Shown here one piece after another: positions 1,676 through 41,720 of a stretch of DNA of 64,000 bases. A program made the translations under genes and the position numbers. The notes under the pieces were generated by a model. It did not search any database and was not told where the DNA came from. It worked only from the letters and a program-made list of their open reading frames with translations. Numbering within the stretch: the stretch's first letter is position 1; every line of letters begins with the position of its first letter. This DNA comes from Poecilobothrus nobilitatus (lineage: Eukaryota; Arthropoda; Insecta; Diptera; Dolichopodidae): contig OX352772.1 of the NCBI GenBank assembly GCA_947095535.1, forward strand, positions 314,536,018-314,600,017, in the 5' to 3' direction.

Positions 1676-1733
1676 TTATTTCAAATCTTTTGATAATGAT
1701 GCTCGTGATAGAAATGGAGCACTTAATCGTGGT
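1676..1733 (-). CDS. Candidate terminal (tail) exon e, partner of the 1804-1845 mini-exon
   Basis: The acceptor TTTTATAG is followed in phase 2 by 18 codons and TAA, peptide PRLSAPFLSRASLSKDLK. Spliced after 1804-1845 it gives ...SCCP-PRLSAPFL..., reminiscent of the CCP end of many SVWC domains. It aligns loosely with tail d (PVLLRSNPNED against PFLSRASLSKD). The stop codon overlaps an AATAAA on the gene strand, so a poly(A) site may follow at once. Confidence 0.5.
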
Positions 1734-1803
1734 CTATAAAATAAAAATAAAATTAAAGTTAAAAATATTGTAATAGAGAAATAATATTGTATATTAATCT
1801 TAC

Positions 1804-1845
1804 GGACAACAAGATGCATTAATTCGATCAAAACAGGATTCATAA
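1804..1845 (-). CDS. Third SVWC C-terminal cysteine exon (mini-exon)
   Basis: A 42-bp exon lies between the acceptor CGTTTTTAG and the donor CC/GTAAGA, phase 2 to phase 2. Peptide: YESCFDRINASCC. Tyr at residue 1, Cys at residue 4, the D-R-L/I motif and the CC pair match the exon at 5952-6143 (YTDCDRL...CC). The last SVWC cysteine is missing. The donor joins in frame to the tail at 1676-1733, 70 bp further on. Confidence 0.55.
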
Positions 1846-2290
1846 CTAAAAACGTTAAAATAAATATTATATTAATTTAAAATATATTTTTTCTTTAATT
1901 AATACCTTTTTTTAAAAGTAAAGAAGATTTAAAAGCAGTTGAATAATAATGGGTTATTTTAAGAAATAAAATGAAGTGTTGATCCAATATGATATGAAAT
2001 TTTTTAAAATTAATTTTAAACTTTGAATTATTAATTTTATTAATAGGTATGTAAAAATAATTATGTTAATATGTAAAAATTTTAATATATCAGTAATTAA
2101 TAAGAAAATCAAAAACAAAAATGAAAATAAACAGTTAAAAGGTTATCAATGTTGAAGAATGAAGATAAAGAAAGCTGCCGATATAATAGAATTATTATTC
2201 GATGATTATAGTTAAATTTTAATAGTATGATTTCAATTCGAAAGAAAAAACAAATAAACTTAACGGTAAGTCGATACAACGGACTTATTA

Positions 2291-2921
2291 ATACCCTACA
2301 CCTGAAAAATTCAAATTAAATTAAAAATCCATAAGTGATTTTAGATCGGTATTTAATATAAACTAAAAACATATACGCCTTTACTAGCTTTGTATAGAGC
2401 ATCCTTGTACAAAATTGCAAGGGTCTATCTTTATTAGTTTCAGAGATATGCTTGTTAAGCTTTGATAGGCGTATGTCAGCTGCTTGAATCGCTTCCCTTT
2501 TCTTCTTTATTCAACGCGAATTACAGAACCGTAAAAGAGGCATAATTTAACCCCTTAATACATAATTTCAAGTTTCTGTCTTTATTAATTTCATTCATTT
2601 CAGGGCACCCTAGTACCAATTTTAAAAATTCTATCTTTTTTGGTTTTGGAGATGCTCGTTTGCTTTGGGGCTCGTTCGGAAGGTTGCAAAATCCGAGCCT
2701 TTATTTTGTAATTAGTAACTTACTATATGAATTTAATGAAGATAGCTTTATTAGTTATTGATTTATCGTGCGAACGGACGGACGAACGGATATCGTTAAA
2801 TGAAATCAGGAGGTGACACTGATTAAGAATAAGAATATACATGTTTACATCTAACTTGCTTTTGGTGGTTACAAATACCAAAGCAAAGTTAATATGTCCT
2901 ATAATTTAGGTGTAGGGTATA
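2291..2921 (+). mobile_element. Family C element with TACCCTACACCT terminal inverted repeats
   Basis: The left end reads ATACCCTACACCTGAAAAAT and the right end TTTAGGTGTAGGGTAT, a clear terminal inverted repeat. Inside are degenerate repeated blocks (TCTATCTTT...GAGATGCTCGTT-like) and a GACGGACGAACGG string. A second copy lies inverted at 39316-40099. No coding capacity. Confidence 0.7.
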
Positions 2922-3129
2922 AAAAACACACTGCGGAAAAGCATTCAGTTCTAATATGAATATTACAAGTATATTTTACAGTCTTGATTGTTATTTTCAA
3001 ATATCGGCCAATGAATTTATTTATCTACCCTACCCTAATGTATCTACCTATAACATGTCTTCAAATTTGGTCTAAATAAAATATATTTTATGCTTTTCAT
3101 TAACTTTTTACCCATGCGGAAAAATTTGT

Positions 3130-3610
3130 ATAAGAGAGCTTGTATCAAGAAAAATTGTATAAGAAAAAGTTGTATAAAATTAAAAGACACTTTCTAGTGA
3201 AATTATAATGTTGTAGCTTTAATTTGTGCGTTTTATTTTCAAAAAAATTGCGCAAATGTCTAAAAATATCAAATTTTCAATTCTTACAAATTTTTTTTTA
3301 CAAAATGGTAAATTTAAATATGTAATTTAAAAAATTTGTATTTAAATTAATTTATAAAGCTAAAGGTTTTTCTAGATTGAAAAAAATGTTAAGCAGAATA
3401 TGAGATATTATATAATATTAAAATTGGTCTTTTCTCCATTTTGCACGGACTGTAGCTTTGTAGCGGGCAAGGCTTATAAAATTAAATTCTAAAAATACAT
3501 GATATACAAAAAGACCTATACATGGTTAAAATTTCATTGTTCTATCTTTAAACAGTATAGAAGTTTTATAAAGAGACGGGTGGATGGTCGGACGAACAGG
3601 ATAAAGCTAA
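3130..3610 (-). mobile_element. Family B relic, reverse orientation, truncated
   Basis: It aligns in reverse with the first half of the 31.3-kb and 36.1-kb copies: GGTTAAAATTTCATTGTTCTATC followed by the GGATGGTCGGACG tract at about 3583. Strongly diverged. Confidence 0.55.
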
Positions 3611-4546
3611 TAAGCAAAATTTTCAAGTGTTGTTTGAAAAATAACCTAAAAACTGAAAAACAAATTATTATTACCATATTAGTTCTGTTTTAGTTGAAAT
3701 GAAAGCCCATAGGTTTCATTTCCATGTGCGTTAATTCAATGCACTAACCTTAATACCTACAACATGTCTTTATGTGTAATATTGTAACATTGATTTTTAA
3801 AAATTTTATTACGATCTTACAGTGAATTTCGCACTCAAAAACAAAACAAAAATTCTACGCACTTAGTTCATGTTTCAATTAATTATTTGTGGAGTTAATT
3901 CATGACGTCTAAAATTAAACACTAATTTTAAGTAATATCTTTAATCTTAATAGTCTAAATATCTTTTCAAAAATTAGTTTTTCTTAAAAATGCTAATTAT
4001 TTTTATCCTCCTCTTTAACGTTTTCAAGAACTTTAACGAAAATCCTTCTCTTTAACGTTTTCAAGGCGCAATTTTTTTTTTGAAGAAAAGAGAATAAATT
4101 GCCGAATTTAGGATATAGAGTAAATTAAAAAAAAGAAACATAAATTTAGATGGTATAAAATTAAATTTATTAATTTATTTAATAAATTATTATTATTTTT
4201 TTTTTTAATTAATTCTATTTAACAATTTTTTAACATTTGATTGTAAATAAGTCTTTAAAAAATTTAAAATAAATTGTAATTAAAATCTTAAAATTTACAT
4301 AATAATTGAATAGATTCTTTAGATTTTTTGTTCTAGAGATGATAAAATGTAAAATTAAAGTTTTTTTTTTTTTTGCACAGTTGTCATGTCAAGCCTCAAA
4401 ATTTCATTAAAGACCAGATCTTTCTTGTATAGCATAAAAAAATTAATTTATATGAGTGATTATAACTAAAAATAATTTTTTAATATAATTATAATGTAAA
4501 ATTAGTATTATATTGGTTTAAATTGTTGGCTTAGCTCTGTTTTGTA
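3611..4546. other. Non-coding A+T-rich stretch
   Basis: Nothing supportable except a small direct duplication of CTCTTTAACGTTTTCAAG near 4011 and 4050, and poly-T tracts. Confidence 0.5.
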
Positions 4547-4598
4547 TTATGGATCTTCATTAGGATTGCTTCGCAATAACACTGGACCCCTAATAGTT
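4547..4598 (-). CDS. Candidate alternative terminal (tail) exon d of the SVWC locus
   Basis: The acceptor TTAATTTTAG is followed in phase 2 by 16 codons and TAA, peptide TIRGPVLLRSNPNEDP. It is related to tail a at RG-x-x-L...NP-x-x-D. It lies 1.35 kb downstream of the cysteine exon 5952-6143, whose donor (CT/) would give Leu at the junction. A decayed duplicate lies about 450 bp upstream on the gene strand (4988-5043). Confidence 0.5.
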
Positions 4599-4987
4599 CT
4601 AAAATTAAAATAATTTAAAAGAAAAAAAAAAAAAAATACTTAAAATATGTTCATATCCGACAGAAAGTTTGATGCAGGTTTAAAATTTATTCTTTCATAC
4701 ATTTATTGTTCTTTAAGGTTTTTAAAAAATATTTTGATTTTAATAAGTAGCTATAAAAGAATTTAATGGGGATAGATAGCAACGTCTATTCAACATGTAA
4801 AAAATCTTTATAATTATTTTACTTTTAATGAATGAATAATATGTTTCAGACTACTTAACATGTAGTTTGAGGGAAAAATATGAAATACGATAACTACAGG
4901 TTGACAGAGGTAACTAAATTTAATTTGACAAAGTTCAATTATTTTTATTAAATTTATTAATTTAGTATTTCTTCCTTAGTATTCCTA

Positions 4988-5043
4988 TTATGAATCAACA
5001 TTAGGATTGTTTAGTAGGTAAAAAAATTGAAGCACATGTAGTT
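4988..5043 (-). pseudogene. Frameshifted tail-exon relic
   Basis: The minus strand has an acceptor-like TTTAG/AACTAC. The 56-bp segment aligns with the 52-bp tail exon at 4547-4598: both start AACTA and both end in CAATCCTAATG, then a short interval and TAA. The length differs by 4 bp, so the shared frame is lost and the phase-2 reading stops early at a TAA inside the segment. I read it as a duplicated tail exon that has decayed. Confidence 0.45.
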
Positions 5044-5352
5044 CTAAACATAAAATTTTTAAATTTGTGTACTTTAAGGCATATAAAAAAAGGATACAGA
5101 AAATTTGAGGCACATGAGAAATTTACTTCTAATAATGACTATTTTAATAGGCGATTTGGTACTAATTAAAGAATTTTAAGCACTTCAAATTGTTTTTTTT
5201 TATTGTACATTTATTTAAAAAAAAAGGTAACGTAGTGAAATCAACAAAACATGTACTAGTTACTCTAACATAATTTTCTTATTTACAAAATTAAAAAAAA
5301 CTTGTATTTTAAATATTGACAAATTTTTTGTAAATAATACGGCAATACAGCA

Positions 5353-5616
5353 CCTAGATGGCGCTCTATATCCAGAATAAAGATGACAATTCTAAATTTA
5401 TTACAAATTTATGCTAGTTTATATAAAATTGGTATATTAGTATATGAACTAGCATAAATTTCTAATAAATTCAGATTTCAGATAGAATTTCTAATAATGT
5501 CATCTATATTTTGGATAGAGTGGCATTTAGACACATAAAATTCGTTTATAAACTAGCATAAATTTCTAATAGATTCAGAATTGCCATCTTTATTTTGGAT
5601 AGAATGACATCTATAC
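5353..5616. mobile_element. MITE-like inverted-repeat element
   Basis: The left arm begins TAGATGGCGCTCTATATC and continues through AATAAAGATG to TTTATGCTAGTTTATA. The right arm is its reverse complement, ending GACATCTA at about 5613. A third partial arm (ACTAGCATAAATTTCTAATA) lies between them near 5449. Arms are about 65 bp with scattered mismatches. No coding sequence. Confidence 0.7.
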
Positions 5617-5951
5617 TATCATTAAAATGACAATTTATATAACTTAACTATCACTGGATATTAAAAATATGGCTCTTAAGGAATGTATCATAAAATATAT
5701 TTGAAATATCTAGAAATTTGAAGCAGTTGAAAAAACAAAACCGGTTTTTTAAAATGGATAAAAATATACAAGATATTGGATCTTGTAAAATGTCAAACAT
5801 TTATAAGGCTTATAATGTAAAATTAGATGTTTATTATTTAAAGTTTATTTTATCCACCAATTAAATAAAAAAAAAAAACTACCTGTGTCAATATTTCTGT
5901 CGGTAAATTTTTAAAATTTTATCTTGACATTTTTATTTTTCTTGTACTTAC

Positions 5952-6143
5952 AGTGACATGTCGTCATCAGTTGTATTTTTATTTGTTGCAGTGTTATTGT
6001 TATTTTGATTGTGATTTAATGTAGTTTTTTTGTTATTTTGATTTATTGCAGTTTTATCATTCGTTTCATTTTGAATATTACAATTTTGATTATTGCAACA
6101 TTTTGGTTTAAAACGGTCGCGCAAGCGATCACAATCTGTGTAA
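5952..6143 (-). CDS. Second SVWC C-terminal cysteine exon, with Asn/Gln/Thr-rich extension
   Basis: The exon lies between the acceptor GAAATTTTAG and a consensus donor CT/GTAAGTAC. It enters in phase 2 and leaves in phase 2, with 63 complete codons. The start, YTDCDRLRDRFKPKCC, then NNQNC, aligns with exon 3 (CDACQ...ECCSIC). The cysteine at exon residue 4, the CC pair and a following cysteine are kept; the first cysteine is Tyr. A stretch of about 40 residues rich in Asn, Gln, Lys and Thr follows, ending TTDDDMS. The next compatible acceptor is at 4598, which would add TIRGPVLLRSNPNEDP and a stop. It is either an alternative third exon or part of a second gene whose 5' exons I could not find. 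Confidence 0.6.
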
Positions 6144-6617
6144 CTAAAATTTCAAAAATAATAAGAAATATGATTTTTTATAAGTAATTATAAAATTAAT
6201 TAAATCTTTTTATATTTTCAAAATGTTTATTTTATATCATATTTATTACAGTAGATAAAAATGTAATGAAAATTTTTCGAAATAAAATTTAAAATAAAAT
6301 TTGAAAGGTAAATAAATAATATTGAATACAGGATTTTAATGTTTTAAGCCATACCTATTTATAGTAAAGAAATATTAAAAATGTTAAATTTAAGCTTCTT
6401 ATAATTTTCCTAGTTAAAACTAAATTTTTTAAAACAAAAATTTGCTAGATAATGAATTCAGATTTGTATCCTAAGAGATTATTTGCATATATATTTTGAT
6501 GCAAATAAAATGTCTATAACACCCGCTTTCATGCGGCGAGCTTTCAAACATTTTTTGCATCTGTCTTAATGTCCAGTTTTGATTTTATGGTCTGAAAGAA
6601 AGGCTGAAACAAATTTT

Positions 6618-7130
6618 TGTTAAGTTGCGGTAACCCGTTTGGGCACGAGGGCCCAATGAAGTTTCTTTTTTGTTGTCTTGCTTATACGGTTTGATAAATT
6701 TTGTTGAAAATTTGCAAAAGTATAAATTTTATGTACAGAAGCGCACTCAATTTAGTTACGATCCATTAACTCGTCTCAGCATAAGGCTTCAATGAAAATT
6801 TTTGGTTTTTTTTTTGCTTTCCTGCTTAAACAGTTTGAGTAATTGAATTGGAAATTTCTAAAAGTGTTGTTCTTTCACAAAAAAGGTCACAAAATTAATT
6901 TGGTTACGATCCATTAGCCCTTTTCTGTACGGTAGTTCGCCAAAAAAAATTTGTTTCTGATTAATGTACAATTTTGCAAAATGATTTTACCCTTTTAAAA
7001 AAAGCCTGTGATCAATTTTCATTAAGTTCCGTTAATCCATTCCGATGAAAATCTAATAGATTTTTTTGTTGCCTTTATTTAACATCTTGATCGATTGAGT
7101 TCAAAATTGACCTTTCGACTGATTAAGCTA
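6618..7130. repeat. Degenerate tandem array, about 4 units of 120-150 bp
   Basis: Each unit starts with a form of AGTTACGATCCATTAACTCG (about 6618, 6751, 6898, 7020) and then has ATGAAAATTT, TTGTTGYCTTGCTTA-like and ACAGTTTGA-like blocks in the same order. Units are well diverged from one another. No open frame runs through. Confidence 0.6.
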
Positions 7131-7315
7131 AAACTGTGTAAAAGCTTTATTTCTTGACAATGAAAGATACTGCAATAACAATAAGTTAGTTAGAACCACT
7201 AAATTCTTTGCTATTGTGAGTGTGTTCGGACACAAAAGCGTCATGAAAAATTTAAAGTTATATTATTAAAATTAGTTAACCTTTTAGTACATGAGAACCT
7301 GTTAATTTTCCTTTT

Positions 7316-7437
7316 CAGACGTGGCTGCAAATGTCGTAAGAGGGAATAACTTTTACGACGTGAGTGGAATTCGAACCTACTCTCTTAGTGTTATAGCGCA
7401 TTTTATACGTTCTTACCCACTAGGACACTGAGTCCCC
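7316..7437 (-). mobile_element. tRNA-derived SINE, copy 1
   Basis: Read on the minus strand it begins GGGGACTCAGTGTCCTAG with a pol III box A (TCCTAGTGGGTAAGA) and then box B (GGTTCGAATTCC). A conserved stem GTCGTAA...TTACGAC follows in the body. Confidence 0.75.
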
Positions 7438-8625
7438 TTTTTATTTTTTATTGCATATTATAAAAGAAATTTTTTGTATATGTAGGAGTTTTGCACTTGG
7501 GTTTAAATTTAAACAACACAACATTTTGAGCAATTAAAAACATCATAATAATTTACATTTATAATGGCAATATTTAATATTATATATTTCGCCAGTAAGA
7601 GTTTTATACTTTAATAAATAATGTGTAATATAATGCATACAAGAGTAGTTTTTAAGATGGAATTACATTGTATTGTTAACAAAGAACGTGCGCATATTCT
7701 TTAACTTGGTTTCCGCCGACCCCAGGACGGAAGAAAAACGTATAGCAAATAACAATAAAAATAAAATTTCAAAAAGATTTTTCTCATTTTAAATCAGATT
7801 AAATCTCATTTTTATATTTTTTAAAAAACTGTTTGCTTAAGCCAATATTATGATTGACAGGCAGAGTCCAAATTTATGGTACTGTAAAGATGTAAGAATT
7901 TTAGATCTATGTAAATTTTATATATAGGTAATAGATCAGATCACAAATTAGTACAGTTAGATAACCTTCCATAACCGCAAATCGTGTTGTTTACAAGTGT
8001 GATCATCGACGTTCAACGAAAAATTCGTCGTCCCCTAGATTAAGATATTTTCAATTTTTTTCGCTATTGGTTGGGTTTGACATTTATCTTTAAGCAGCAA
8101 ATATTTAAAAGTGTTGTATAATTTAAATAAACAGTTATATTTTTTTTCTCCTTTCATTACAATTATGTTTTTCCATTTGATGAAAAATAGTTGAGTGAAG
8201 CAATTGTTACCAATTGCTGAGAGAAGCAATGAGTGAAGCAATTGTTATTGGTTGTCGATGGTCGAAATTGCGTTAATTACTATAAAAAACAATTTTTGTT
8301 TTGAATACAATTTGTTGTTTTGTTTTTCTAAATATTTATGAAATACTTTTATTTTGCAATATTTCCAATTTCGTTAATTTTATAACTCATTAGAACGATT
8401 AGAAGTCATTCTAATCAAAAGACAAAATTCCGTTAGTCTGAGTCAAAGTACGCTAAATAAAAGCATTAAAAAAAAAATTAAACAAATTTTCTTAAAAAAA
8501 ATTTATATTTGAATGTTATATAAAAATACTGTTTGTTATTTTTTTTGTTTCGGTTTTTAATTTTAAATTATTATATTATAAAATAAAAAATTGTTTTCAA
8601 ACAATTTATGCAATAACCAATAACT

Positions 8626-8788
8626 TTAGGCACATAACTCTTTCTTTTGTTTTCTCTCTTTCTTTTTTAATTGCTCTTCAAGACTTAGTGGCATTTGTTT
8701 TTTCTCTTTCTTTTTTAACTGTTCCTCTGGACTTAGTTGTGTTTGTTTTTTAGGTTGTCTTAAATGAAGTGATCTTGCTATTGGAATT
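8626..8788 (-). CDS. Candidate alternative terminal exon c, Lys/Glu-rich tandem repeat tail
   Basis: The acceptor ATTATTATAG is followed in phase 2 by 53 codons and TAA. The peptide starts IPIARSLHLRQPKKQ, then carries two copies of a 14-15-residue unit, LSPEEQLKKKEKKQ and LSLEEQLKKKERKQ, and ends KELCA. This is a highly charged, probably helical tail. The frame remains open for some distance before the acceptor, so an upstream start (to 8880) is formally possible, but the polypyrimidine tract and AG fit an exon start better. Whether it joins the SVWC exons is inferred only from phase and position. Confidence 0.45.
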
Positions 8789-8860
8789 CTATAATAATTA
8801 TGAAAAAAAAAAAAAATTAAATTAAAAAAGTAGTTTAAAATTTTTTTAAATAAAATAAAA

Positions 8861-8921
8861 TTACACATGAAATACTGCACTTTCTTCTGTTGAATTTGAC
8901 TTTAGTTTTCCTTTACATAAG
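8861..8921 (-). other. Weak exon-like segment upstream of tail c
   Basis: A minus-strand acceptor (AATTTTTAG) is followed by a phase-2 frame of 19 codons ending in TAA (LCKGKLKSNSTEESA...). The phase agrees with the neighbouring tail exons. There is no convincing homology to the other tails and no good phase-2 donor, so it may be a chance frame. Confidence 0.15.
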
Positions 8922-9329
8922 CTAAAAATTAATATTTACTATTTAAAATTAAAGTCTTTCTAAAGAATATTTCATGATAATAAAGACAAAATGCATGCTA
9001 AAAGAACCAATCACCTTTATAATTCACTCATATGTGATTTTATTTCTTTTTTTTTTTTAAATATTATTGTTACATATCACTTTTTTCTAATAATTAAATT
9101 AATATTAGTTAATTGAAAAAATCAATTTAAAATTTGTTACACATAAATAATATATAATGTGATATTTTTAAATAACAATAAAAAAAAATTTCACAATATT
9201 TAAAAGTTTCTACTTGACCAAGAAAGGAAGCAGAATAACTAAATATTAATAAACCGTTGTTTCTGCCTTTAGTTTTGTTTTTGTTGTTACCATATCGGCA
9301 AGGTAGGTAACTATGTAGGTAAGGTGTTA

Positions 9330-9665
9330 ACCTTCATGATCCTGCTTGAAGACTACAATTAGCACTAGGTTGCGCCATTTTCATTTCACTGCACTCACGT
9401 GACCTATGTTTTGTGGTTGTTTTCGGTTTTGTATCCAACCCGTGCAGTTCAGATACGATATCAATTCTTTGATACTGTGTTTAGAGAGTTTGCTAAGGTT
9501 GTAGTAGAGCAGTTTGTCGAGTGAGAGGAGTCTGGATCTAGCTTGGGCAGAATATTTGTAAAGAAAGTGCTTACGGTCGTCACTTTCATTTGCTGCTTTG
9601 CAACTCCTGCAGGAGGTATTGTGAGTGATTCCCAGTTTGGCTTCATGGCCCGGATCGGCAAAGGC
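9330..9665 (-). pseudogene. Non-LTR retrotransposon fragment, C-terminal Cys domain
   Basis: In one minus-strand frame the translation reads GHEAKLGITHNTSCRSCK..., then ALA-like RSRLLSLDKLLYYNL, then SIKELISYLNCTGWI. This matches the C-terminus shared by jockey/LOA/I-type LINEs (GHxARLG...CRxC...HLLC...ELL.FI..TGW). The usual HLLCxC has become HFLYKY. Only this end is present. The frame ends in a normal stop (SAVK, TGA) near 9385. Confidence 0.7.
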
Positions 9666-9953
9666 AATTCAGTAATTTAATAAAGTTAACTTATTTAGGA
9701 GTATACGTAGTATACGTACTTTATATCGAAACAATTATGCCGAATTTCATTCAATTTATTGTTTAAAACATTTTCTATTTTTATACAAAGTTGCAACCAC
9801 ACATCACATATTATATTATAGTATGTTATAAACAATCTTATTTTCGAACTCATGCGATGTTCAAAATGGTAAAAATATCATTTTCGAACTCATGAATCCA
9901 AAACGTCAATATTTATTAAAATCATAAATTAATTGGTTTTACAACTCCAATTA

Positions 9954-9958
<5 letters not shown>

Positions 9959-9993
<35 letters not shown>
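9959..9993. repeat. (AT)n microsatellite
   Basis: About 16 uninterrupted AT units. Confidence 0.95.
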
Positions 9994-9996
<3 letters not shown>

Positions 9997-10324
9997 CATT
10001 ATAATATAGCAAAAAAATTAAGGATCATTCAACAGGATAACATTACATTTAAACAAAAAATATTTTTTAAAGTTACTGCTTTTTATTTTTAAATATTAAT
10101 TAATAGTATTTAACCACAACCCTAATATTTAATTTTATATCTAATATTTAATATTTATATTTAAAAGATAATAATTAAATAAAACAAAAATTTGTAATGC
10201 AAATAATACTAATTATACCAATACCCATACCAATTCCATAAAAATAACTATGTTAAATACATAAAAGAATAGAAAATATTTTAAAATTATTATACATATA
10301 TTAAAAAATTTAATTAATTTAGTG

Positions 10325-10391
10325 TTAAATATCTTTTTCTGGACTTATAATTGGAAGATGCATCGTATTTGTTTTGAACCGACATTTCTGG
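10325..10391 (-). CDS. Candidate alternative terminal (tail) exon b of the SVWC locus
   Basis: The acceptor TATTTTTAG is followed in phase 2 by 21 codons and TAA. The peptide begins QKCRFKTN and ends LPIISPEKDI. Over the last ten residues it matches tail a (LSIINPKHDI), and the underlying DNA is also alignable (GGAYTTATAATTG on the plus strand in both). It contains one cysteine, unlike tail a. It could be an alternative last exon or the relic of a duplicated gene copy. Confidence 0.5.
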
Positions 10392-10997
10392 CTAAAAATA
10401 TATTATATAAAAAAATTTTAATTATTTTTTTTTTTTTTAAGTGGTTTAAATAAAAAAATAAGAAAAATTATTTATAAGTAGTTATATATATAATTTATTT
10501 CTAAATTTTGAATAGTATATAAAAAGACGACTTTTAAAAAACCGTTTATATCTTACAAAATTTCAGTCTCAATACTTAAGTATTTTTGTTAATTCACTTA
10601 TAATACGCTTAATCATTCAGTTACTGTTAAAAGTATTTTAGCTCAATGTAGCTCAATGGTCTATTTTCCACGTGTCGTTAAGAATATGCTTTTTTGTTTA
10701 AAATTAATCATACGTTTCATATCCTCATACCAACAAACTAATTTTGTGGAGAGGATTTTCTGTTGTCACGAAAAAGAAAATTATCATATTCTCGAACTAA
10801 TGCGATAATAATTAATAACAAATAAAAATTTTTAATAGGGTCCGAAAAAATTTTATATATATACTTTTGATTTATTCTTTTTTAAATGAAAGGAAAATAA
10901 TCGACAGAAAATATATTTTGAAAGTTTAAAATTGAAATTTATCTAGTTTGAAAATTATGAAATTAATTTGTATTACATATTAAAAAAAAAAAAAATT

Positions 10998-11463
10998 CGA
11001 ATAATATGCTTATAAGTTTCACTATGTCGGTCTGTTTACAATATTTCTACAAGTCTGTTTACAATACTTCTACGTTAAAAATAGAACAATGAAATTTTAA
11101 CCACGGATATGTCCTGTAAAAAATTTTTTTTTTTTATTTAATGCATTTCTCTGTCACATAAATGTGGACGGGAAATCACGCAGCCTTTCCTGTTCAGGGG
11201 TGGCTGTAAATGTGCTAAAAGGGTATAACTCTGGGATTCGAACCCACATTTCCTCAGTGTTTACAGCGTATTTCATACGATCTCACTCACTAGGCCACCG
11301 AAGCCCCTGTAAAAAAATTGATCTCATAAACCGTAAGTGTTTTATTATAAGATTACAAAAAAAAAATACAAATTTTCGTGCAAGTCACAGTATTTTAAAC
11401 TATTTTTATTGCCTTTTGAAATATATATATCTTTAAAAACCTTTGGGTTTCATTCTACTTTGT
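10998..11463 (+). mobile_element. Family B relic with internal deletion, split by a SINE
   Basis: The left piece (to about 11123) has TATAAGTTTCACTATGTCGG, CTGTTTACAA twice and TTTTAACCACGGATATG. The right piece (about 11330-11463) has TTTTCGTGCAAGTCAC and CTTTGGGTTTCATTCTACTT, the two ends of the 31.3-kb copy. The middle is lost, and the SINE at 11127-11307 sits between the pieces. Confidence 0.6.
11127..11307 (-). mobile_element. tRNA-derived SINE, copy 2, full length with target-site duplication
   Basis: The minus strand begins GGGGCTTCGGTGGCCTAG (box A region). Box B is GGGTTCGAATCCC. The body contains ACAGGAAAGGCTGCGTGAT and ends in an A-rich tail. CTGTAAAAAA flanks it on both sides (11114-11123 and 11307-11316), a good target-site duplication typical of L1-type retrotransposition. 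Confidence 0.85.
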
Positions 11464-12737
11464 TTTCATTTTGTATACATTTCGTTTTAATTTAAAAATT
11501 AGATAAAACTCATTTTCATATGGATATTATCACATATTATAAAATCTGAATGTCATGACATAAATACTAGGAATGTCATAATACTAGAAATGTCATAATA
11601 CTAGCAAGCTGATAATATAAGAATCATATCATCAATAACCATATCATGCAATACATAATTTAGCATACAAAAGTTATAATGATCTACTGATGAGTTAAAA
11701 GAAATCGATAACATAAATAAATTTAAAATTAAGCACATTATTTAAATTTAATAAGAAATATGTGAATAATAAAAAATAATAAATAACATTAATTTTAATT
11801 ATTAAATTGAAAACTATAATTTTAGCTTAATACCAAATAGAAAATTTGGAATAGATGGAATAGATGGAATAGAATTTCTGGTTATAACAAAAAAAAAAAA
11901 TCTTTGATTATTGAATTAATTTTTATGACAATTTTTGAATTAATGCACTGATTTGTATTTTTGTATATTGTATTTTGTAATTTTATAATAATTTAAAACT
12001 CTATTCGAGCGATTGGGTTTTTTGGAGATGATGAAATAAATAAATAAATAAATAAGCAAAAAAAAATAAACACAGAAATCCTTAAAAAAATATCAAAATC
12101 GATCATATTAATTTATTTTGTTTTTGTACACTTTTCGCTTCAATTTTTATTTTACACATATGAAATGAAATTTTTACACACACATATAGATAAGTAACAT
12201 TGCTTAAAAAATACAAGTGGAAACGTAAAGTGTAGTTGAGCATCAGTTTAAAAAATACACATGGAAACTGGGTCAATAAAATTTTTGATCAATATATAGA
12301 AATGTCACATTTTATCTTTTATATATAATTAAAGGTATATTATCTGTCATTTTACATTTTAAACTTTGACGCAAGTATCTTTCATTATGAATAATAAAAT
12401 AATTTATATTTGTAATATTTTTGAAAGTTTCATTTATAATATCGACTATCAAATTTTAGGGATACAATTCTCATAATTTGTTGTTTTCTTTTCTAATTTC
12501 CATAATCACTACTTTAACAAAATCATTTTTTGTTTTCAATCATTCCTTTGACAGTGAAGAAAATTGTTAGTATTTTTTAGACTTCAATAATTCAATAATT
12601 AAATTTTGTTTATTTTTTATTTTTTAAATTATATTTATTTTTATTCAAAAATATACAGATACATATAAAATAAAAATTAATTTTTAAATATTTAATAATC
12701 TTAGTCGAAAAAATTTTTATTTTGAAGTTGAAACCTT

Positions 12738-12801
12738 TTAAATATCATGTTTTGGATTTATAATTGATAATTGTGCTCCACGATTTATTACCATAACATC
12801 G
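12738..12801 (-). CDS. Candidate alternative terminal (tail) exon a of the SVWC locus
   Basis: The minus strand shows the acceptor AAATTTCAG followed by a phase-2 frame of 20 codons and TAA. The peptide includes VINRGAQLSIINPKHD. Joined to exon 2 (TC/C) it gives Ser; joined to the internal donor of exon 3 (AC/C) it gives Thr; both are in frame. An AATAAA (reverse strand) follows shortly after the stop. The peptide resembles the tails at 10325-10391 (LPIISPEKDI) and 4547-4598 (RGPVLLRSNPNEDP), which argues for real, related coding exons. Use in transcripts is not shown. Confidence 0.5.
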
Positions 12802-14041
12802 CTGAAATTTATTTAATAATTTATCTTAATTGTTAAAAGTTTATATTATATTAATATATTAATAATTAAAATGTAATCATTTAAAATACAATATAATATG
12901 TAATTTAATGCAAAGGGGTAATTGAATAAAAAAAAATCTAGGTATAAATATGTAGAAATCCTTGGTACTAAGACAGAAATTTTTTGCATAACCCTATTTG
13001 TAAAGATCCCATATAAATAGATCTTTAAAATCGGTAAGAAGCCAATGTTCAAATGGTGTTAATTCAAATTTTATAGAATAGTTTTCAATCATTAAAACGA
13101 AATAATTAATTAATTACGTGTTAAAGAAATAAGGACGAGTTTCAAGTTTGTCACTAGTCAAACGAATGAGTTTAAAAAAGTTTCAATGTCTCACCAGTTA
13201 AATATTTGTGCGTTAAAATCTCGTGTTTAAAAAAAAAATATATTCATTTGATGCCATGAATGTCAACTCACAAAATCCAAAAACTTAAAATACAAACACC
13301 GCAATATGAAAATCGGTGGTTGTGATCTGAAATTGTTTTTAATAGTTGGGATTTTTTTTTACATTTCATATTTAAATGATTAAATATATTGATTGACTTA
13401 TTTTGATATTGATATCACTGGCGTATTCTGGCATTTCTGAATGGCTAAAACTTGATTTTATAACCAAATATGAAGTTTTTCACATAAATATTTCAATATC
13501 AAAGCATTTAAAAGAATTCCAATAAAAAATATTTAAATAAATTACGGTTGTCGGCTTCAAATTCCTGTGAATTCCTACAACTATAAAATCCCTTCTAATT
13601 TTTCTTTCTACATATGCATGACATTTTCCATTACATTTTCCATTTGCATCTTTTCGTGATATTTTATAAAAAATATCGTGAAAATCCTAGTTTTTGACAA
13701 GTAGGATTTAAAAATGTGAAGTTTTAAAAAACGAAATTCAAAAAAAATAAATTTATAAAAGTGTGAAATTTAAATTCGCGAGATTTCAATATGCTTTCGT
13801 ATTAAAAATTGAAATCTATATTATATTTTACAAAAAAAAAAGGGTAATATTAAGAAATCATATATCAATTAAAAAATGGCAGCTCAATTTAATCAGAGAA
13901 TTAAATCGGAAATCAAGCAGAGATAAAATCGAAATATAATTTAAAAAGAATTATATTTAATAAATTAATGTCAAAATTAAATACATATTATATGTATCTA
14001 ATATTTATATTTTAAATTAAAAAATAAAATTGTTTTAATAA

Positions 14042-17000
14042 TTACGTTTTATTGCAAATTGAACAGCATTCAGTCAAAATTTTTGGATCATCATCTACTT
14101 GGCAAGCATCGCACCTTAAAATAAAAAATTTTTTTTTTTTTTTATGTTTTAAAAACATTATATAAAATTTAAAAAAGAAAATGAAAACATATATTCATAT
14201 TATATATAATGAAATAAATTAATTAAAATACATATAAAATAAAATAATAAATTTAACAAACCTTTATGTTTTTTTTTTTTTTTTTTTTATTATGAAATGT
14301 TGCTTTTGTTCCATTCCCATTTTAAATGTTTTTAAAATACACAATATCATATTAATATTAAGTGTAAAGCAATTATTTAATTTTTTTTTTTTTATTTAAG
14401 ACACATTTTTTGTTATTTATGATAAAAACTAAATTTAATTATTATTAAAAAAAAGTTTTTATCACAAAATTTTTTTTTTTTATTACACGAATTTTAGCGG
14501 TTTTATTTAAAATTTTAAAATCACATACAAAATTTCTTTTTAAACAATTTTAACTCTTTTCACTATTTTTAAAATCGCAAATCCAAATTTCGATTTAAAT
14601 TAAATACAAACACGACGGTATTTTTTTTTTTTGACGAAGTTCTCATGGTATATGGTATACGGAACGTAGAAACGTAGCTCTCATAGTATAAAAAATGTTC
14701 CACTACTTATTTGTCACTTTAAAGAAGACGAGATAGATATGGCAAAGTATATATATATCCTTACTCCGGATTGAATTCTAAATTGATTTTGCCATGTACG
14801 TGCGTTCATTAGTTTACACGATAATTTAAAAAATAATAGGGCTAGGATTCTGAAATATTTACCATTTGAAAATTAATTTCATTGTAAAATTGTTTCTTTT
14901 GCTATTGATTTTAAGCAAGTTCGATCGACGGGACCGAGTATTTATCATGTAACTTCTTTTTTTATATGAGCATAATTTTGTGTTTATATTAACAGGCTAT
15001 TTAAAGAAGTTAAGTTATGTTAACGACTTCTGAAAAATTTGGTTAGTTTAGAACAGTAGATTCGAGTAAATGCCATAGAGCTCAAAAATTTACAATAATA
15101 TATTTCTTAACCAAGTAAGTCAGACATTTAAATTTTTTTTAATAGATGATTAAAATGTATGGTAACAGTATAATTAATGTTCGTACGTATACGGATATAC
15201 AGAGTTGACACAAACGACTATACAATGTTTTTACTTATTTGTTTTACTTGTTTAAATACTTGGCAAATATTTTGGTGACTGTTTCGTCTTTAAAGTTTTT
15301 GTTTCTTATTTAACTTTGTCATTTTGAAATATGTATAACAATCAAGATTTTTTCTAAGTAGTTACCACAAGAAAATAGATGTTGTGATATTTCATCCAAT
15401 TTCATTAGTTATATCGGAGACAATTAATGAACCATTAACGTAAAATGGAAAGTTCTTACATAGAAATTAAAAAAAATTAATTCATGACAATTCTTAAAAA
15501 GTCCAGTCAAAAAAAATTAAAAAATTTTTTTTAAATAATTTCATTAAAATTTTTCAAAATTATTTTAATATTGAATTTTAATAGTATATATAAAAGAATG
15601 TTTTAGTAAGAATAAGAAAGCATTAAAAACTGCATTTTTGCAAAAATAAAAAATTAATATTGCATATTGCAATAGTACAAATAAATGTTATGAGAGGTTA
15701 TGAGATTAATATTATGAGATAACTTTTACAGGTTAATTTTTTTACTATTTTTAATACTTCAATTAAGTATTTTGAAAATAATTTTGATATAGAAGGCGTT
15801 AAATAATAAAATTTATTTATAGAACAAAATTTTAAATATTGAATTTACTCAAAATTAATTAAAATTTTTATATTTTGATTCAATATTTCAGCCATTTATA
15901 AAATTTTAATTTCAATTAATAATAATTAATAAAAATTAATAATTAATAAATAAATCTTTAATCATAAGAATTTTAATATTCGTTTCATTTAAAAATCATA
16001 AAGATTTCAAAAAAAAAAAAAAATCTACTTTTCAACTAAATAATAAAGACGTTATTTTTGAAATCTTCGAAATTTTTGAAAAAAAAAGAATTAACCATTA
16101 ATATTATATTAATAATTAATTTGATTTATACATCATGTGTGAAACTGAAACTCTATCTCTATGTTTAATATTTTTATTAATAAATCATTTATTGAGTTTC
16201 AAAAAATTTATTAAGTGAAGATGACAGCTAGATGCTGTTGAAATTGTAATTCGCATAAATAAATAAAAATTTTTTGAAACTCAATAAATGGTATTGTTCT
16301 TTTATTAATAAAAAATAAAAAATAAAAAACAAAAAATATTAATAATTAAATTATTAATCTTTCATTTTCTACATATTAAATTTATTACATTTCTAGATTA
16401 TGATTTCCTAGAAAATACTGACAATGAATTAAAATTTTTATGTATGTATTTAGATCTTAACCAAAGTGATCTAATAAAAAAATTGATGAATACAAAAATC
16501 TTCAATTTTTAAAATAACTGATTCTATAAGGAAGTTTATTAAAATTATCATTTTATAAAATGTATGTAGAAGAGAAATTAATCATTACCATATTATATAT
16601 TCTATAATATATAAACTCAAAAATTCCGGAATTATAATGTAGACATTATGGCCAAATATAATAAAAATAATATATAGGGTGTATCAAAATGTATAGACCA
16701 AAAGAAGATTCAGATGTTTAAAACAAAGTTTGTAGGAAAAGTTGGATTCTGGATTTTCAACCGTAGTTTAAGAGAATAGCGTTTCTAATTTTTTTTTTTT
16801 TATTTCGAAAATAAATTGGTTTAGTTTTATATGTATAATATCTAAACTGTAAAAAATAACAGTAAATATGATATTTTTTTAGTCTTCGTTATAAGCTTTA
16901 AGATTTTGTATTGTTGTATACCCCAATTTTACATAATTTTGATTTTATAGACATCAAAAATAAATAAATTTATTTTAAAAATAAAAAAATTTTTAAAATC

Positions 17001-19406
17001 GTATATTTCAATGATAAACAGTTGAGAATAAAATCGCCTCACTTAATTGACGTTTTATCTCATCCCTTCCTCTATATTAATTTTATCGCGAAACACCCTG
17101 TATATTGATTAAAAAAAAAAAAATTATATTATAATGTATTTGTTATCAATTTTAAATAAATCGCATTTTATATTATTCGCTGTTGAATATTATTTCTGAT
17201 AAGTACCATTTAAATTTCTAATGTATTATATTTAGTTATTTATTTTGTTAATACGGAAATTTAAATTAATATAATATAAAAAAAAAAAAAAACATTATAT
17301 TATTAATAATTATTGTAAAGTTTCAAAACTCAAAGTTTAGTTCAATTTTAATTGATTTCATTTGAAAAAAACTTAACGGTCGACAGATTTCAAAATTTCA
17401 ATTCAAAATTTATAAAAGATAAAGTAAATATGTACATATATATAATATATTTTATATACAAACATTCAAGTATTATAATATTATCTACAATATTTATATT
17501 AACATCCACCAAACCAACCATACCATAATGTTATATTTAAAAATAAAATATAAATTAAAGAATTGTCCAAAAGACCAAAAATTCAATAAAAAAAATTTTG
17601 AAATGCAAGCTTTTATTTATTTATTAAATAAAAAATAAATTAAATAAATATAAATTAAAAGTAAAAAAAAAATAGAATTAATTACATTTTTGTGAGAATC
17701 ATTAAATCACCCATTGTTTCATTTTATTTAAATTAATAGCGATAAATTTCAAAATTATTTTTATTATTTTGTTTTTATTTTTGTTTTTTTATTGATAAAA
17801 GATGATCTAACGTTTCAGTAATCATTAGATTCTAGGTGCTTAGTGTACCGTTAAAACATAGAAAAACCTATTCGGCAATAGTTGGTGTTAAGTTTCTCTA
17901 AATTTATATAAATATGATACCACGTTAACGGAAAATGTTTTGAAACCTTCTCAAATCTATGTCAGACAGTTCACTTAGATCTTGAAAAATGAAACTACCC
18001 AGATTTTCTCGCCTTATTCTCAACAGGCTAATTAATTATTTTTATTTACTAATGTATAACTGTACTCAATAAGACTATAGCTTTGAAGTAACTTTATATA
18101 TAAAAAATATTAACTCTTTCATTAATATACTAATTGATTTGGTACTGGTATTGGTCTGAAATTTTAAGCTACATATATTACATAACTCAAAAAGCAAAAA
18201 AAAAAATTAATGTTTTAGTTATAGCATTATTATGTTTGATTCCAAGATGAAATACAGCATTTAATCGTATGTAATATTACATATACATATATGTATATTA
18301 CATTTAAGATTATTTTTTTTTTGTTGTATTTGAGATTAAAGAAAACTTCCGGTAAAGATTCTATTCCGGTTATAATTTATTAAAAATTTTATTCTATTTA
18401 TGCCACTAAGTTCTATAAAAGTGTTAGGAACATCTTAAATATTTTAAAACAAATAAAAGAAAAATTACAGACCAATTAAATAACTGTTAAAATTATCAAA
18501 TTAATAAAACGACTATACTAAAGAATAATAAATTTTTATATTTATTTTAATCCTTAGTTTTTTTTATTATAATTTTAAAATTTATTCAAATATTAAAGAA
18601 GAACCCCTAAATCTGGTATCATTTAAATAAAACGAGTGTTTTAAAATTTTTTGACCAAAAAAAAATATGTCAAGGTTAATACGAATTGACAAAAAAACAA
18701 AAAAAAAAAAAAATAAACAAATAAAAATATGAACAATATGTTTATCACTATGATCAATTTCGGTTATAACTGGAATTAACTATTATTATTGTTTTGTTTA
18801 AAAATCTATAGATACTTTTTAATAATTTACTTAATATAAGTATACATTATTACAATATTGGGTTTTTAATGTTTATCTCTCACAATATGCATTATTTTTT
18901 TTTTTTAAACTAATAGTTAATAATTAATATTAATTATTAAACTTACGATTTTTCAATTGTATATTCTCCATTTTCATCACATTTTATTATTTGACAATCA
19001 GTTGGTAAGACTAAATGTTCACCAGCTTTTACTTTAACATTTTTTTCCGTAACCATGCAATATTTTGTTTTTGTTTCATCTAGGAAAACACAATTAGTAT
19101 GTGATTTAAAAAAAAAAAAAACAAAAAAAAAAAAATTAAAATAAAAAACACCAAATGGATAATTAATTAGTATTATCTTATAATTAAGTATATTTTATTA
19201 TTTTATTTTATTAAAACATTTTTTTTTTTTGTTTTTAATTTTTAATTATATAACAAAACAAACAAAACCAAAAAAAAAAAAAAAACAAAACAAGTAAAAA
19301 CAAGTTAAAAACATATTAATATCAAAAATCACTATATAGGTATACCTTGAGCCAAAATTATACCAAAAATATTTAATAAAACGAAAATCACTAAAAACGA
19401 CTTCAT
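14042..19406 (-). CDS. Secreted single-domain von Willebrand factor type C (SVWC) protein, three-exon model
   Basis: Coding exons are 19346-19406, 18947-19079 and 14042-14114, giving 88 residues. Exon 1 begins MKSFLVIFVLLNIFG, a hydrophobic signal peptide ending near AQ at residue 20, so the product should be secreted. Introns are 266 bp and about 4.8 kb. Junctions are AAG/GTATAC to CCTAG, and ATC/GTAAGT to TTTTAAG, in phases 1 and 2, and the frame stays open through both. The mature part has eight cysteines at about 28, 49, 54, 66, 69, 81, 82 and 85, including CDAC and a terminal CC-x-x-C (ECCSIC). This number and spacing, with the vicinal pair near the end, is the SVWC pattern known from arthropod secreted proteins such as the Vago group, some of which respond to infection or nutrition. 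That role is family knowledge, not shown here. Further 3' exons downstream may replace or extend exon 3. No paralogous exon 1 or 2 was found. Confidence 0.8.
16186..16291. mobile_element. Small inverted-repeat element
   Basis: The left arm CATTTATTGAGTTTCAAAAA and its reverse complement at the right (TTTTTTGAAACTCAATAAATG) are about 26 bp long and separated by about 55 bp. Confidence 0.6.
17825..18010 (-). pseudogene. LINE 3'-end relic
   Basis: Its reverse complement aligns with 34330-34470: CTGACATAGATTTGAGAAGG, AACTTAACACCAACTATTG, GAATAGGTTTTTCTATG and ACCTAGAATC. The translated scrap LSELSDIDLRRFQN fits the LINE C-terminus seen at 34.0 and 51.1 kb. Confidence 0.6.
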
Positions 19407-23068: not shown

Positions 23069-24907
23069 CTACCACATGAAATCAATATCATTCTTGGCGA
23101 TTTCAATGCAAAACTTGGATACGGAAAACTAGATGATTTATGTGGATTTTTTGAGTATAATATTTAGTGTGCAAAGGCGGACTTGATCTGCAATAAGGAA
23201 AGCGAAAGCTAATTGGTTAAGGCAACAAAGTGCGGAAATTGAAATATTGGAAAAACGGCATGCTGGTTTCAATCTACATAAAAAATTTAAAGAAACTTCA
23301 GCTGTCTACAGAAAAAGAATGTCAACTATATTAACGGATGACCAAGATAATATTGCAGTGATTTCTGAAACGAAAAAGAGTTTGGGAAAGTTATATAAAA
23401 GACTTGTTCTCTGACCTTACTAGATCTAATATTTGTAGAGAAACAACATTTAGGCAATTGACAGAACCAGGAATTACAAAAAGTGAAATAGAAAAGGCCA
23501 TCCAATCATCAAACAATAACAAAGCAGTAGGTCCTGATGAAATTCCTGCAGAACTTATAAAACTTATCAATGACAACAACATTGTTCTACTTGAGATAAT
23601 ATTCAACAATATATATAATACCAGTATATATCCTAACGAATGGCTGAAGAATACTTTTATTGCTTTACCGAAGAAAAATAACGCAAGAAAATGTAACGAA
23701 TATAGATTAATTAGTCCCATGTGTCATACTCTCGAGATTTTCTTAAAAATACTTCATAATTGATTGTATAAAAAACTGGAAGAAGCCATGGGAAAAACTC
23801 AATTTGGATTTAGAGAAGCTGTGGCAACACGAGAAGCTCATTTGAAATCCGCTAGTTGAACAGAATTGTGGAACGTACAAAAAGATGTTTTTCTTGGCTT
23901 TATCGATTACGAAAAACCTTTTGATAGAGTACAACATGATAAATTAATTAACATACTTCGAACAATGAATTTTGACGGTATTATGTGAATTAAAAATTTA
24001 TATTGGTAAAAGTATATTTACATAAAGTATATTTCAAGATTCATTTGCTGATGTAGATAAAGGAATAAAAGTAAACGGGATATTTGTTAAGAACAGACGA
24101 TATGCCGACGATGCAACAATGTTAGCCGAAAATTTAGACGATTTGCAATACCTAATGAATAAGGTTAATGAACAGAGTAAGGAATTTGGTCTCAATATAA
24201 GTACTGCAAAAACAAAATTTCTGATTATTAGCAGAGGAAATATAGCTTACAATAACGCAAACATCACTGTAGATAACAAAGCGATAGAACGTGTAATCAG
24301 TTTTAAATATCTCGGTTCCTAGTTACATGAAGACTGAAATTCTGGTAAAGAAATGAAATACAGAATTCAAATCGCTAGAAATGCCTTTTATAAGTACAGA
24401 AAAATATTAAATAATCGTGATGTCAAAATTAACTTAAGATTACAATTCCTTAAATGCTTTGTCTTGTCAGTTTTATTATATGGTGTAGAGGCCTGGACAC
24501 TCAAAGTAGCTATGATAAACAAATTGGAAGCATTTGAGATGTGGACCTATAGACGTCTGTTAAAGATATCTTCAACAGATCACACATCCGATATGGAAGT
24601 TCTATAGAGGTTGCAGAAAGAAAGAGAATTACTTTTAATAATTAAAAACAAAAAGTAGCCTATTTTGGCTATATAATGCGAGGAACAAAATATGAATTAC
24701 TACAGCTTATTGTCGAAGGCAGAATAAAAGAAAGACGAGAGGTAGGAAGAAAGCAACTATCATGGTTCAGCAATGTCAGGGAGTGGACTGGTTTGCGTAC
24801 AATTGGAGACTTAGTTCATACAGCATAAATAGAATGGAACATTGTAGCCACCTTAACATAAAATTACCGACATCCAGTAGTGGATAGGCATCAGAAAAAG
24901 AAGAAGA
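23069..24907 (+). pseudogene. Degenerate non-LTR retrotransposon (endonuclease and reverse transcriptase)
   Basis: Pieces appear in order across several frames. First the endonuclease motif LPHEINIILGDFNAKLGYG (23069). Next the linker EIEILEKRHAGFNLHKKFKE (about 23240). Then RT motifs KAVGPDEIPAELIKL (about 23520), QFGFREAVATREA, FIDYEKPFDRVQHDKLI (motif A, about 23900) and RRYADDATML (motif C, about 24098). Then SVLLYGVEAWTL and RRLLKISSTDH, and finally FGYIMRGTKYELLQLI with EGRIKE and SWFSNVREWTG. The region between motifs A and C, including motif B, is deleted, and there are several stops and frameshifts. The tail ends in GAAGAAGA. The element is dead; clade not assigned. Confidence 0.85.
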
Positions 24908-40150: not shown

Positions 40151-41720
40151 TTATACCCGTACGATAGGATCGGGTATAATAAAATTACTCCTCCGTTTGT
40201 AACACCTCGAAATAAGCGAGCTAGATATACCTTCAAAGGTATGGATCGGATCAGAAAAAAATTCTAAGACTTTTGAGCCATGTCCGTCCGTCCGTCGGTC
40301 CGTCCGTCAGCACGCTAACTCAAAAACTAAGAAAGCTAGAATCTTGAAATTTACACAAAATATTCTTGGAGTAATTTGTAGGTTCCCTATTTTTTTTGGT
40401 TGAGTTTGGACCAAACCTTAAGGTAGCTCTCGAACACCTAACTTTTAGATCCCGACATTTTTTTTGAAATAGAGCTATGAAATTTTAACTGCTGATAGAT
40501 CTCACAAAAATATTAATTTTATTTTTAATAACTTTTTTTTGTAGCCTCACCCGTTACGGAGCTACAGCTCCCCAAAGGTTCAAAAAAGCTCTATATTTAA
40601 ATTGTTATAGCACAAGTTGTATAAGGTGTATCTTCATTTTGAAAACGCCAAACGATTACTACTTTTATTAGCTTTAAAAGTATATATACAATAAATATAT
40701 ATTTGTGGCATACGGTGTCTTAATTTACCGTTATGCGAAACTCAAATTTTGCAAAATTCTTTAACCCTTCTATCTTCTAAAGGGTTAAAGTTGGAAACTT
40801 GAAATTTTGAAGGAAGTTAGATCTTTGAAAATTAGTATGAGTCATTTCAGAAATTTTTTTTGTATCACTCCCCGTTTAGGAGCTGTAAGGGGTCAAAAAC
40901 TGAAAATTTCCTATTTTTAAACACCTGTAACTTGAACACCTGTTAAAATTTTTTTGAAGTAATACACAAAAATTAAAGCTTCAACATTATACTTTTATTG
41001 CTGTTAACAACTTTTTTTAATAATATAGGGTTACTTTATAATTGACGAAAGTGTTACTTGATTTTTTCAAATTTTCTAACAAATTTCATTAACGAATTTT
41101 TTCCATTTTGTTTTACTCGATAATTTGAAATTGTTGAGGATATAATGCGTAGTACAAAAAAATGTAATTAAATAAACAACATAACGGTTGCTTGAAGAAT
41201 TTTTATTTATATGATATTGATATATATACATACTTATATAATATCATGTTTATTTACATATCGTATATGTCACTAGTGAATGAATGATAAGAATATAGAT
41301 GTATATTATATAGCGCCGTATTTACATACATATATGTATTTTATTGTACTTATAAGAAATTATTCTGTCAATGGAATATTTAAATATAATATAATATAAT
41401 ATTTAAAATTATATTTACTATTTTGTACTAAGTAAATTTAATATACATTTACCGCTTAGTATTAAATGGTACTATAGAATATTTGAAAAAGCTTTGGATT
41501 GATAATCGTTATGTTAAAATCTGCTTTTGAAGAATGCATAAACATATAGTTTGAATATATGTACAACCCATAATTCTAGAAATTATAAAATTCACCCAAA
41601 TTATTTTAAAATACTAAAATATTAAAAAAATAATATTGTAAGCAAAGTGACAGGCTCTGAACATACTAACGGTTCGTACGGGTATCTAAGAGTTGACAAA
41701 GTCAACTGTATTCTTCCTCG
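40151..41720 (-). mobile_element. Family A element, left arm of an 8-kb inverted pair
   Basis: It starts TTATACCCGTACGATAGG and runs, as the reverse complement of 46558-48150, to GTCAACTGTATTCTTCCTCG. The inner end again shows CGTACGGGTAT (about 41675) next to a palindrome AGTTGACAAAGTCAACT. No coding sequence. Confidence 0.85.

Follow-up and report, generated by a model that had tools for sequence, protein, structure and literature searches.

Can one gene supply a single front for a whole series of different secreted-protein ends? The question is raised by a locus of the dipteran Poecilobothrus nobilitatus, in a stretch of 64,000 nucleotides of contig OX352772.1 (positions 314536018-314600017; hereafter the window, in which genome position = 314536017 + window position). 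A sequence-only reading had proposed that one signal-peptide exon and one SVWC-like exon serve a train of alternative C-terminal exon cassettes, with tandem duplicates that lost their 5' exons as the alternative. We found the train to be longer than first noted: the two front exons are followed by eight cassettes of two exons each and by two orphan tails, with every part on the minus strand over a span of 33 kb that extends beyond the low edge of the window. Codon conservation, open cassettes and the single front support the proposal of a shared front, and we consider it probable that the locus is a single gene for secreted proteins, descended from SVWC genes, with a constant front, at least eight alternative 3'-terminal cassettes and two orphan tails. 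A selected single-front array of alternative C-terminal cassettes appears to be much the best reading of the locus.

Layout of the exon train

The window (G+C about 24%, mean over a 4-kb table) was extended by 100 kb of flank per side into a joined sequence of 264 kb with 0 N, and the host assembly (943.8 Mb, 84 contigs) was searched genome-wide. Downstream of the front, the minus strand of the window carries three cysteine exons (c1-c3) and five tail exons (t1-t5). These stand where the sequence-only reading had placed them, with AG acceptors, GT donors where claimed, open frames and entry in phase 2; c1, given there as 14042-14114, is present, and with its donor it becomes 14114-14046. Cassettes 6-10 lie beyond the low edge, from window -1378 to -13599 (OX352772.1: 314534639 down to 314522418). 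The parts are as follows.

19346..19406, minus strand: exon 1, signal peptide MKSFLVIFVLLNIFGIILAQ, donor in phase 1
18947..19079, minus strand: exon 2, SVWC-like first half with three Cys, phase 1 in and phase 2 out, donor gtaagt
14046..14114, minus strand: c1, cysteine exon of cassette 1, CxxC..CC..C, phase 2-2
12738..12801, minus strand: t1, tail exon of cassette 1, end LSIINPKHDI-stop
10325..10391, minus strand: t2, tail exon without a recognisable cysteine exon, end LPIISPEKDI-stop
8626..8788, minus strand: t3, longer Lys-rich tail exon without a recognisable cysteine exon
5952..6143, minus strand: c2, cysteine exon of cassette 4, PKCC..C, Asn-rich extension, phase 2-2
4547..4598, minus strand: t4, tail exon of cassette 4, end LLRSNPNEDP-stop
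1804..1845, minus strand: c3, short cysteine exon of cassette 5, phase 2-2
1676..1733, minus strand: t5, tail exon of cassette 5, 70-nt intron from c3, weak motif SRASLSKDLK-stop
Window -1378 to -1467 (OX352772.1: 314534639-314534550), minus strand: c4, penultimate exon with C..CC
OX352772.1: 314534483-314534429, minus strand: t6, tail exon
Window -3174 to -3242 (OX352772.1: 314532843-314532775), minus strand: c5, penultimate exon without a CC pair, found by reading
OX352772.1: 314532676-314532619, minus strand: t7, tail exon
Window -6490 to -6558 (OX352772.1: 314529527-314529459), minus strand: c6, penultimate exon with C..CC
OX352772.1: 314529400-314529343, minus strand: t8, tail exon
Window -7571 to -7648 (OX352772.1: 314528446-314528369), minus strand: c7, penultimate exon with C..CC
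OX352772.1: 314528292-314528241, minus strand: t9, tail exon
Window -13428 to -13496 (OX352772.1: 314522589-314522521), minus strand: c8, cysteine-poor penultimate exon without CC, found by reading
Window -13557 to -13599 (OX352772.1: 314522460-314522418), minus strand: t10, tail exon, found by tail profile

All eight penultimate exons are of phase 2-2 and all ten tails are entered in phase 2, so every join of front, cassette and tail is in frame. Between penultimate exon and tail, six of the eight cassettes have an intron of 58-98 nt; the other two have introns of 1244 and 1353 nt. A tail motif resembling LxRxNPxKDI-stop is common to 8/10 tails. The landmarks by which the cysteine exons had been aligned hold in part: the CC pair is found in c1-c3 and in 6/8 penultimate exons overall, and a Cys at exon residue 4 likewise in six but not in the other two, while the "D/R motif" is weak, by eye, in c2 and c3. 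The c1 donor (gtaatt) overlaps an in-frame TAA, with ACG TAA spanning the exon-intron border. The Asn-rich part of c2 (6071-5975) consists of short imperfect DNA repeats (family D7, three copies) and is perhaps an expansion.

Upstream of the orphan tail t2, a single 2-2 candidate passes the thresholds used (11214-11158); it is weak and lies in a repeat-like stretch. The same scan upstream of t3 gave no candidate. The t3 frame reads beyond the usual stop position into a Lys/Glu-rich segment repeated twice, and a possible exon seen by eye at 8921-8867, 78 nt upstream of t3, would break the frame.

The scans that delimited the train targeted phase 2-2 exons with C..CC, and their splice thresholds were loosened after a first pass in which only c2 passed. 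At the loosened setting, both strands of the window gave exactly c1, c2 and c3 as 2-2 exons, and 60 simulated 20-kb sequences gave none. Other phase pairs produced four matches in the window, one of them c2 through a different acceptor. In the 200 kb of new flank, scanned with unchanged thresholds except for a leading spacer of 0-8 (previously 0-6), we found three extra 2-2 exons (c4, c6 and c7), all on the minus strand and within 8 kb of the window edge; c1-c4, c6 and c7 are thus the only six 2-2 places on either strand of the 264 kb. With other phase pairs, the matches in that sequence are alternative ends of c2 and c4 and three places that do not belong to the train, near 153060, 50824 and 23273. 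The exons c5 and c8 were added by reading the sequence, each closely upstream of a tail. When seven of the tails were made into a profile, it recovered all seven and also t10 (22.4 bits), the best place outside the train scoring 8.0. In total, three cysteine exons and one tail were found outside the window after the search rules had been set. A strict pattern after the tail end of t7 and t8 found those two alone in the 944-Mb genome (control 0), and the whole genome, searched at the protein level with exons 1-2-c1, gave exon 2 and c1 alone at E <=0.001.

Evidence for selection on the cassettes and for a single front

The tails were compared by codon position over the last eight sense codons of t1, t2, t4 and t6-t10, with t3 and t5 excluded. 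Pairwise identity was 150/224 (67%) at position 1, 171/224 (76%) at position 2 and 93/224 (42%) at position 3, and the 24 nt after the tail stops were 36% identical, against a random expectation of 32%. Since codon positions 1 and 2 are conserved while position 3 and the flank are near random, the motif tails look selected as protein. In leave-one-out tests all eight motif tails scored 13.6-27.6 bits with the tail profile; with the full profile and no stop required, the best place outside the train on either strand of the 264 kb reached 12.4 bits, and no decayed tail copy was found above that score. All eight two-exon cassettes are open, with splice dinucleotides and frame intact. Under neutral drift to the divergence seen at position 3, the probability of an intact cassette was 0 to 0.0005 (4000 trials for each of the eight cassettes), a figure that somewhat favours our reading because openness played some part in the choice of cassettes, c5 and c8 having been picked by reading beside a tail.

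These results bear on the alternative that the train consists of dead 3' fragments, tandem duplicates of an SVWC-like gene without 5' exons of which the first copy alone works. Such remains would fit the duplication of the 3' part, which clearly occurred, as well as the missing CC pair of c5 and c8 and the lack of the usual stop in t3. The preservation of splice dinucleotides and frame in 8/8 cassettes, the concentration of tail conservation at codon positions 1 and 2 and the lack of decayed tail copies make this explanation highly improbable, and the duplicates envisaged by the sequence-only reading are accordingly disfavoured.

Another possibility is that the train is a set of ordinary genes whose own first exons are unrelated, or have diverged so far that our scans missed them. 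Further fronts were searched for on both strands of the 264 kb, and no second SVWC-like first-half exon with splice sites was seen. When splice sites were not required, no first half between 18946 and -13600 was convincing as judged by eye; the relaxed matches in the train comprise the cassettes themselves, one peptide of repeat-like sequence and chance-looking strings (e.g. at 7641). A scan for a signal peptide plus donor, at its strict setting, gave exon 1 as the sole candidate across the 33-kb train, and six places in 528 kb (both strands summed). With a looser donor, a weak candidate appears at 11738 (donor score -1.7), and without a donor another at 12106. The train therefore contains one convincing signal-peptide exon.

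Ordinary SVWC genes of the same genome served as controls. A genome-wide search with the Pfam SVWC profile (matches at E <=10; such counts are lower bounds) returned at least 20 matches: 14 second halves, five first halves elsewhere and exon 2. Thirteen of the 14 second-half exons are preceded at a distance of 158-1214 nt by a recognisable first half of their own; the remaining one (locus L034) has a doubtful first-half pattern match within 1.5 kb, and an automatic count gives 14/14. An ordinary array on contig C2 (C2:77270001-77300000; loci L045, L043 and L044) contains six three-exon SVWC genes on one strand. Its six first and six second halves, picked by eye among chance-like pattern matches, and its six same-strand signal-peptide exons with phase-1 donors form six triplets in order, with two further signal-peptide candidates on the opposite strand. 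In this array, tandem duplication of ordinary SVWC genes has thus kept one front with each copy, against a ratio of 1 to 8 in the train.

The scan for signal peptides does miss some: with a donor it gave a candidate at 7/14 ordinary second-half loci (about 1.5 kb upstream examined), and this, with the weak candidates at 11738 and 12106, leaves some room for missed fronts. Against it, the same scan returned the six signal-peptide exons of the ordinary array in order, and even relaxed first-half patterns are absent from the train except for the chance-looking strings. We consider separate genes with overlooked first exons very unlikely. Conserved tails, open cassettes and a single front, set against controls with one front each, thus disfavour both dead duplicates and ordinary tandem genes.

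Probable SVWC descent and contrary observations

Several observations weigh against the reading of the train as a single-front SVWC-type gene, and a number of them concern the SVWC label. Exon 2 is a weak match to the first half of the domain: it scores 18.1 bits (E 0.0033, profile positions 1-35) against Pfam SVWC (PF15430), below the cut-off of 27, 17.6 bits (E 3.91) in the genome-wide search and 19.8 bits with a profile built from ten SVWC genes of the host genome. Joined to c1-c8, it gives forms that score 12.7-19.3 bits against PF15430 and do not reach the gathering cut-off of 27. None of c1-c8 is among the 20 matches listed by the genome-wide search. With the ten-gene host profile, between 22 and 149 out of 200 shuffled versions score as high as the cassette itself, so that no cassette does better than its shuffles; identification of the cassettes as SVWC second halves by sequence profile failed. 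The SVWC domain has eight cysteines (PMC13115929), a number reached together with exon 2 by c1, c4, c6 and c7, but not by c2 (seven), c3 (six), c5 (four) and c8 (four).

The other contrary points concern processing. The tails t2 and t3 are orphans. Several splice sites are of moderate strength by a simple splice score: the acceptors of c1 (-1.9), t1 (-2.6), t2 (-2.2) and c2 (-1.7) fall below the 75th percentile (-1.5) and above the median (-4.1) of all AG in 20 kb. AATAAA occurs within 150 nt after 6/10 tails, compared with 40% of random windows; this rate is not clearly above background and so gives no proof of a poly(A) end for each cassette. The segments upstream of the eight penultimate exons, searched for a docking or selector motif in common, gave only A/T-rich words. 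The top word is found in 7/8 segments, which 4/200 random sets equal, and among words containing at least three G/C none is common to three segments.

What links the train to SVWC genes is exon 2 together with intron position and phase. Ordinary SVWC genes share with it a signal-peptide exon that ends in phase 1, a first-half exon and a phase-2 intron directly before the fourth Cys. All 13 ordinary genes checked have phase-2 entry into the second-half exon, 12 of them exactly one base before the first Cys codon, and the best-scoring first-half donor is in phase 2 in 10/13, with three not resolved. In c1 and c4-c7 phase 2 likewise falls just before the fourth Cys codon; c2, c3 and c8 keep the phase and have no Cys at that codon. 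The string P-x-CC, present in 14/14 ordinary second halves, is found in three of the six CC cassettes (c2, c6 and c7; chance 0.001). Cysteine spacing differs, four cassettes having CxxC where ordinary genes have a longer first loop. Ordinary genes also differ in having one front per second half, and in the ten that were joined the second-half exon closes with a stop of its own, a further tail exon not having been searched for. Because bit scores are low, the cassettes are not preferred over shuffles and the spacing differs, we call the locus a gene of SVWC descent, and not one with a confirmed SVWC domain; its second halves would have been replaced or have strongly diverged.

Searches of other collections added no relatives. 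Viral and prokaryote collections gave 9 and 208 pattern matches, none confirmed; the PDB gave one match (E 0.94), taken as chance; Rfam gave no match at gathering score in the window.

Repeats were also noted, the first two kinds by eye. Copies resembling short interspersed nuclear elements (SINEs) of transfer RNA type lie on the minus strand at about 11310-11140 and 7440-7310, with others around -5740 and -18970; they sit within the train's long introns or past them, and are variants of 'cggtggcctagtg', in some followed by 'ggttcgaat'. An open frame on the plus strand at 23362-23763 resembles a reverse transcriptase fragment of the long interspersed nuclear element (LINE) type. A repeated element encoding LTKILILFLITFFCSPT... 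has five near-identical copies in the 264 kb, at 443-317 (minus), 47790-47664 (minus), 40499-40625 (plus) and, in the flanks, at -74872 and 147324.

Predicted use of the cassettes and known systems

The constant front would consist of exon 1, with the signal peptide, and exon 2, with the first three cysteines. An exon at the second-half place and a short tail exon would have been duplicated in tandem, giving at least eight cassettes and two orphan tails. The exon 2 donor (18947) would then join the penultimate exon of one chosen cassette, which would be spliced to its own tail, mostly across a short intron, where the message would terminate. Any choice of cassette would remain in frame because every acceptor has the same phase, and each message would encode a secreted protein that, counted with its signal peptide, is about 100 to 145 residues long and differs from the others in its end but not in its front. 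The choice itself may be made by competition, by RNA pairing or in trans. From the sequence we infer the splicing of 18947 to each cassette, and we infer equally that one cassette is used per message, in cis and not in trans, as well as any immune or effector role of the products.

As exon 2, the penultimate exons and the tails share phase 2, cassettes could also combine freely; counting gives 38 in-frame downstream pairings among eight penultimate exons and ten tails. Such free mixing would yield mix-and-match secreted ends from one cytokine-like SVWC-type locus, half of them without the eight-cysteine fold, and we put it forward tentatively, as a possibility that we rather doubt.

Among known genes with this kind of architecture, lola of Drosophila combines shared 5' exons with a large choice of 3' exons, and both lola and mod(mdg4) encode nuclear BTB proteins. 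In the accessible part of one paper, mod(mdg4) of Drosophila is described as having common 5' exons and more than 30 isoforms through alternative 3' exons (PMC12692577). Both genes resemble the train in shared 5' exons and many 3' ends; the products of mod(mdg4) are made by trans-splicing. Trans-splicing of a common front to cassettes with their own promoters, as at mod(mdg4), would suit constant 5' exons with many 3' exons and has that Drosophila precedent (PMC12692577); nothing in the sequence demands it, and all parts found lie on one strand within 33 kb, so that we regard it as very improbable here.

Serial use is a further alternative, in which the 2-2 cysteine exons are included one after another in a single long message that stops at the final tail. 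As all eight penultimate exons are 2-2, serial inclusion would stay in frame; a stop-bearing tail in each cassette, conserved in 8/10, would then be purposeless, and we give this explanation almost no credence. The bicycle genes of gall aphids, which encode secreted cysteine proteins with paired CYC motifs from many small phase-2 exons, do use their exons in series, whereas here each cassette ends in a stop.

The closest working model for the single-front array is insect serpin-1, with constant front exons, tandem alternative 3' exons and variable C-termini. The accessible portion of one study gives 14 copies of exon 9 for Manduca sexta MsSRPN1 and 16 putative isoforms for Pteromalus puparum PpSPI1 (PMC5691223). 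Serpin-1 belongs to another protein family and its variable part is a reactive-loop exon; the train, unlike serpin-1, has a two-exon cassette, made up of an exon at the SVWC second-half place and a tail.

SVWC proteins are apparently restricted to arthropods, according to the accessible text of one paper (PMC13047442). Vago and its relatives are cytokine-like and pattern-recognition molecules whose diversity is ascribed to gene expansion; the accessible text of this 2026 review mentions no gene of the present kind, with no use of "exon" and one of "splic", on STAT (PMC13115929). A study of lacewing venom reports an alternatively spliced serpin, SVWC peptides and 74 alternatively spliced venom genes, and describes no SVWC exon train in its accessible part (PMC12758981). 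If our reading is true, the locus would represent a second route to SVWC diversity besides gene expansion, with a layout like that of serpin-1. A small domain would be split, with one half constant and the other half a cassette, and one gene could yield a family of different secreted proteins.

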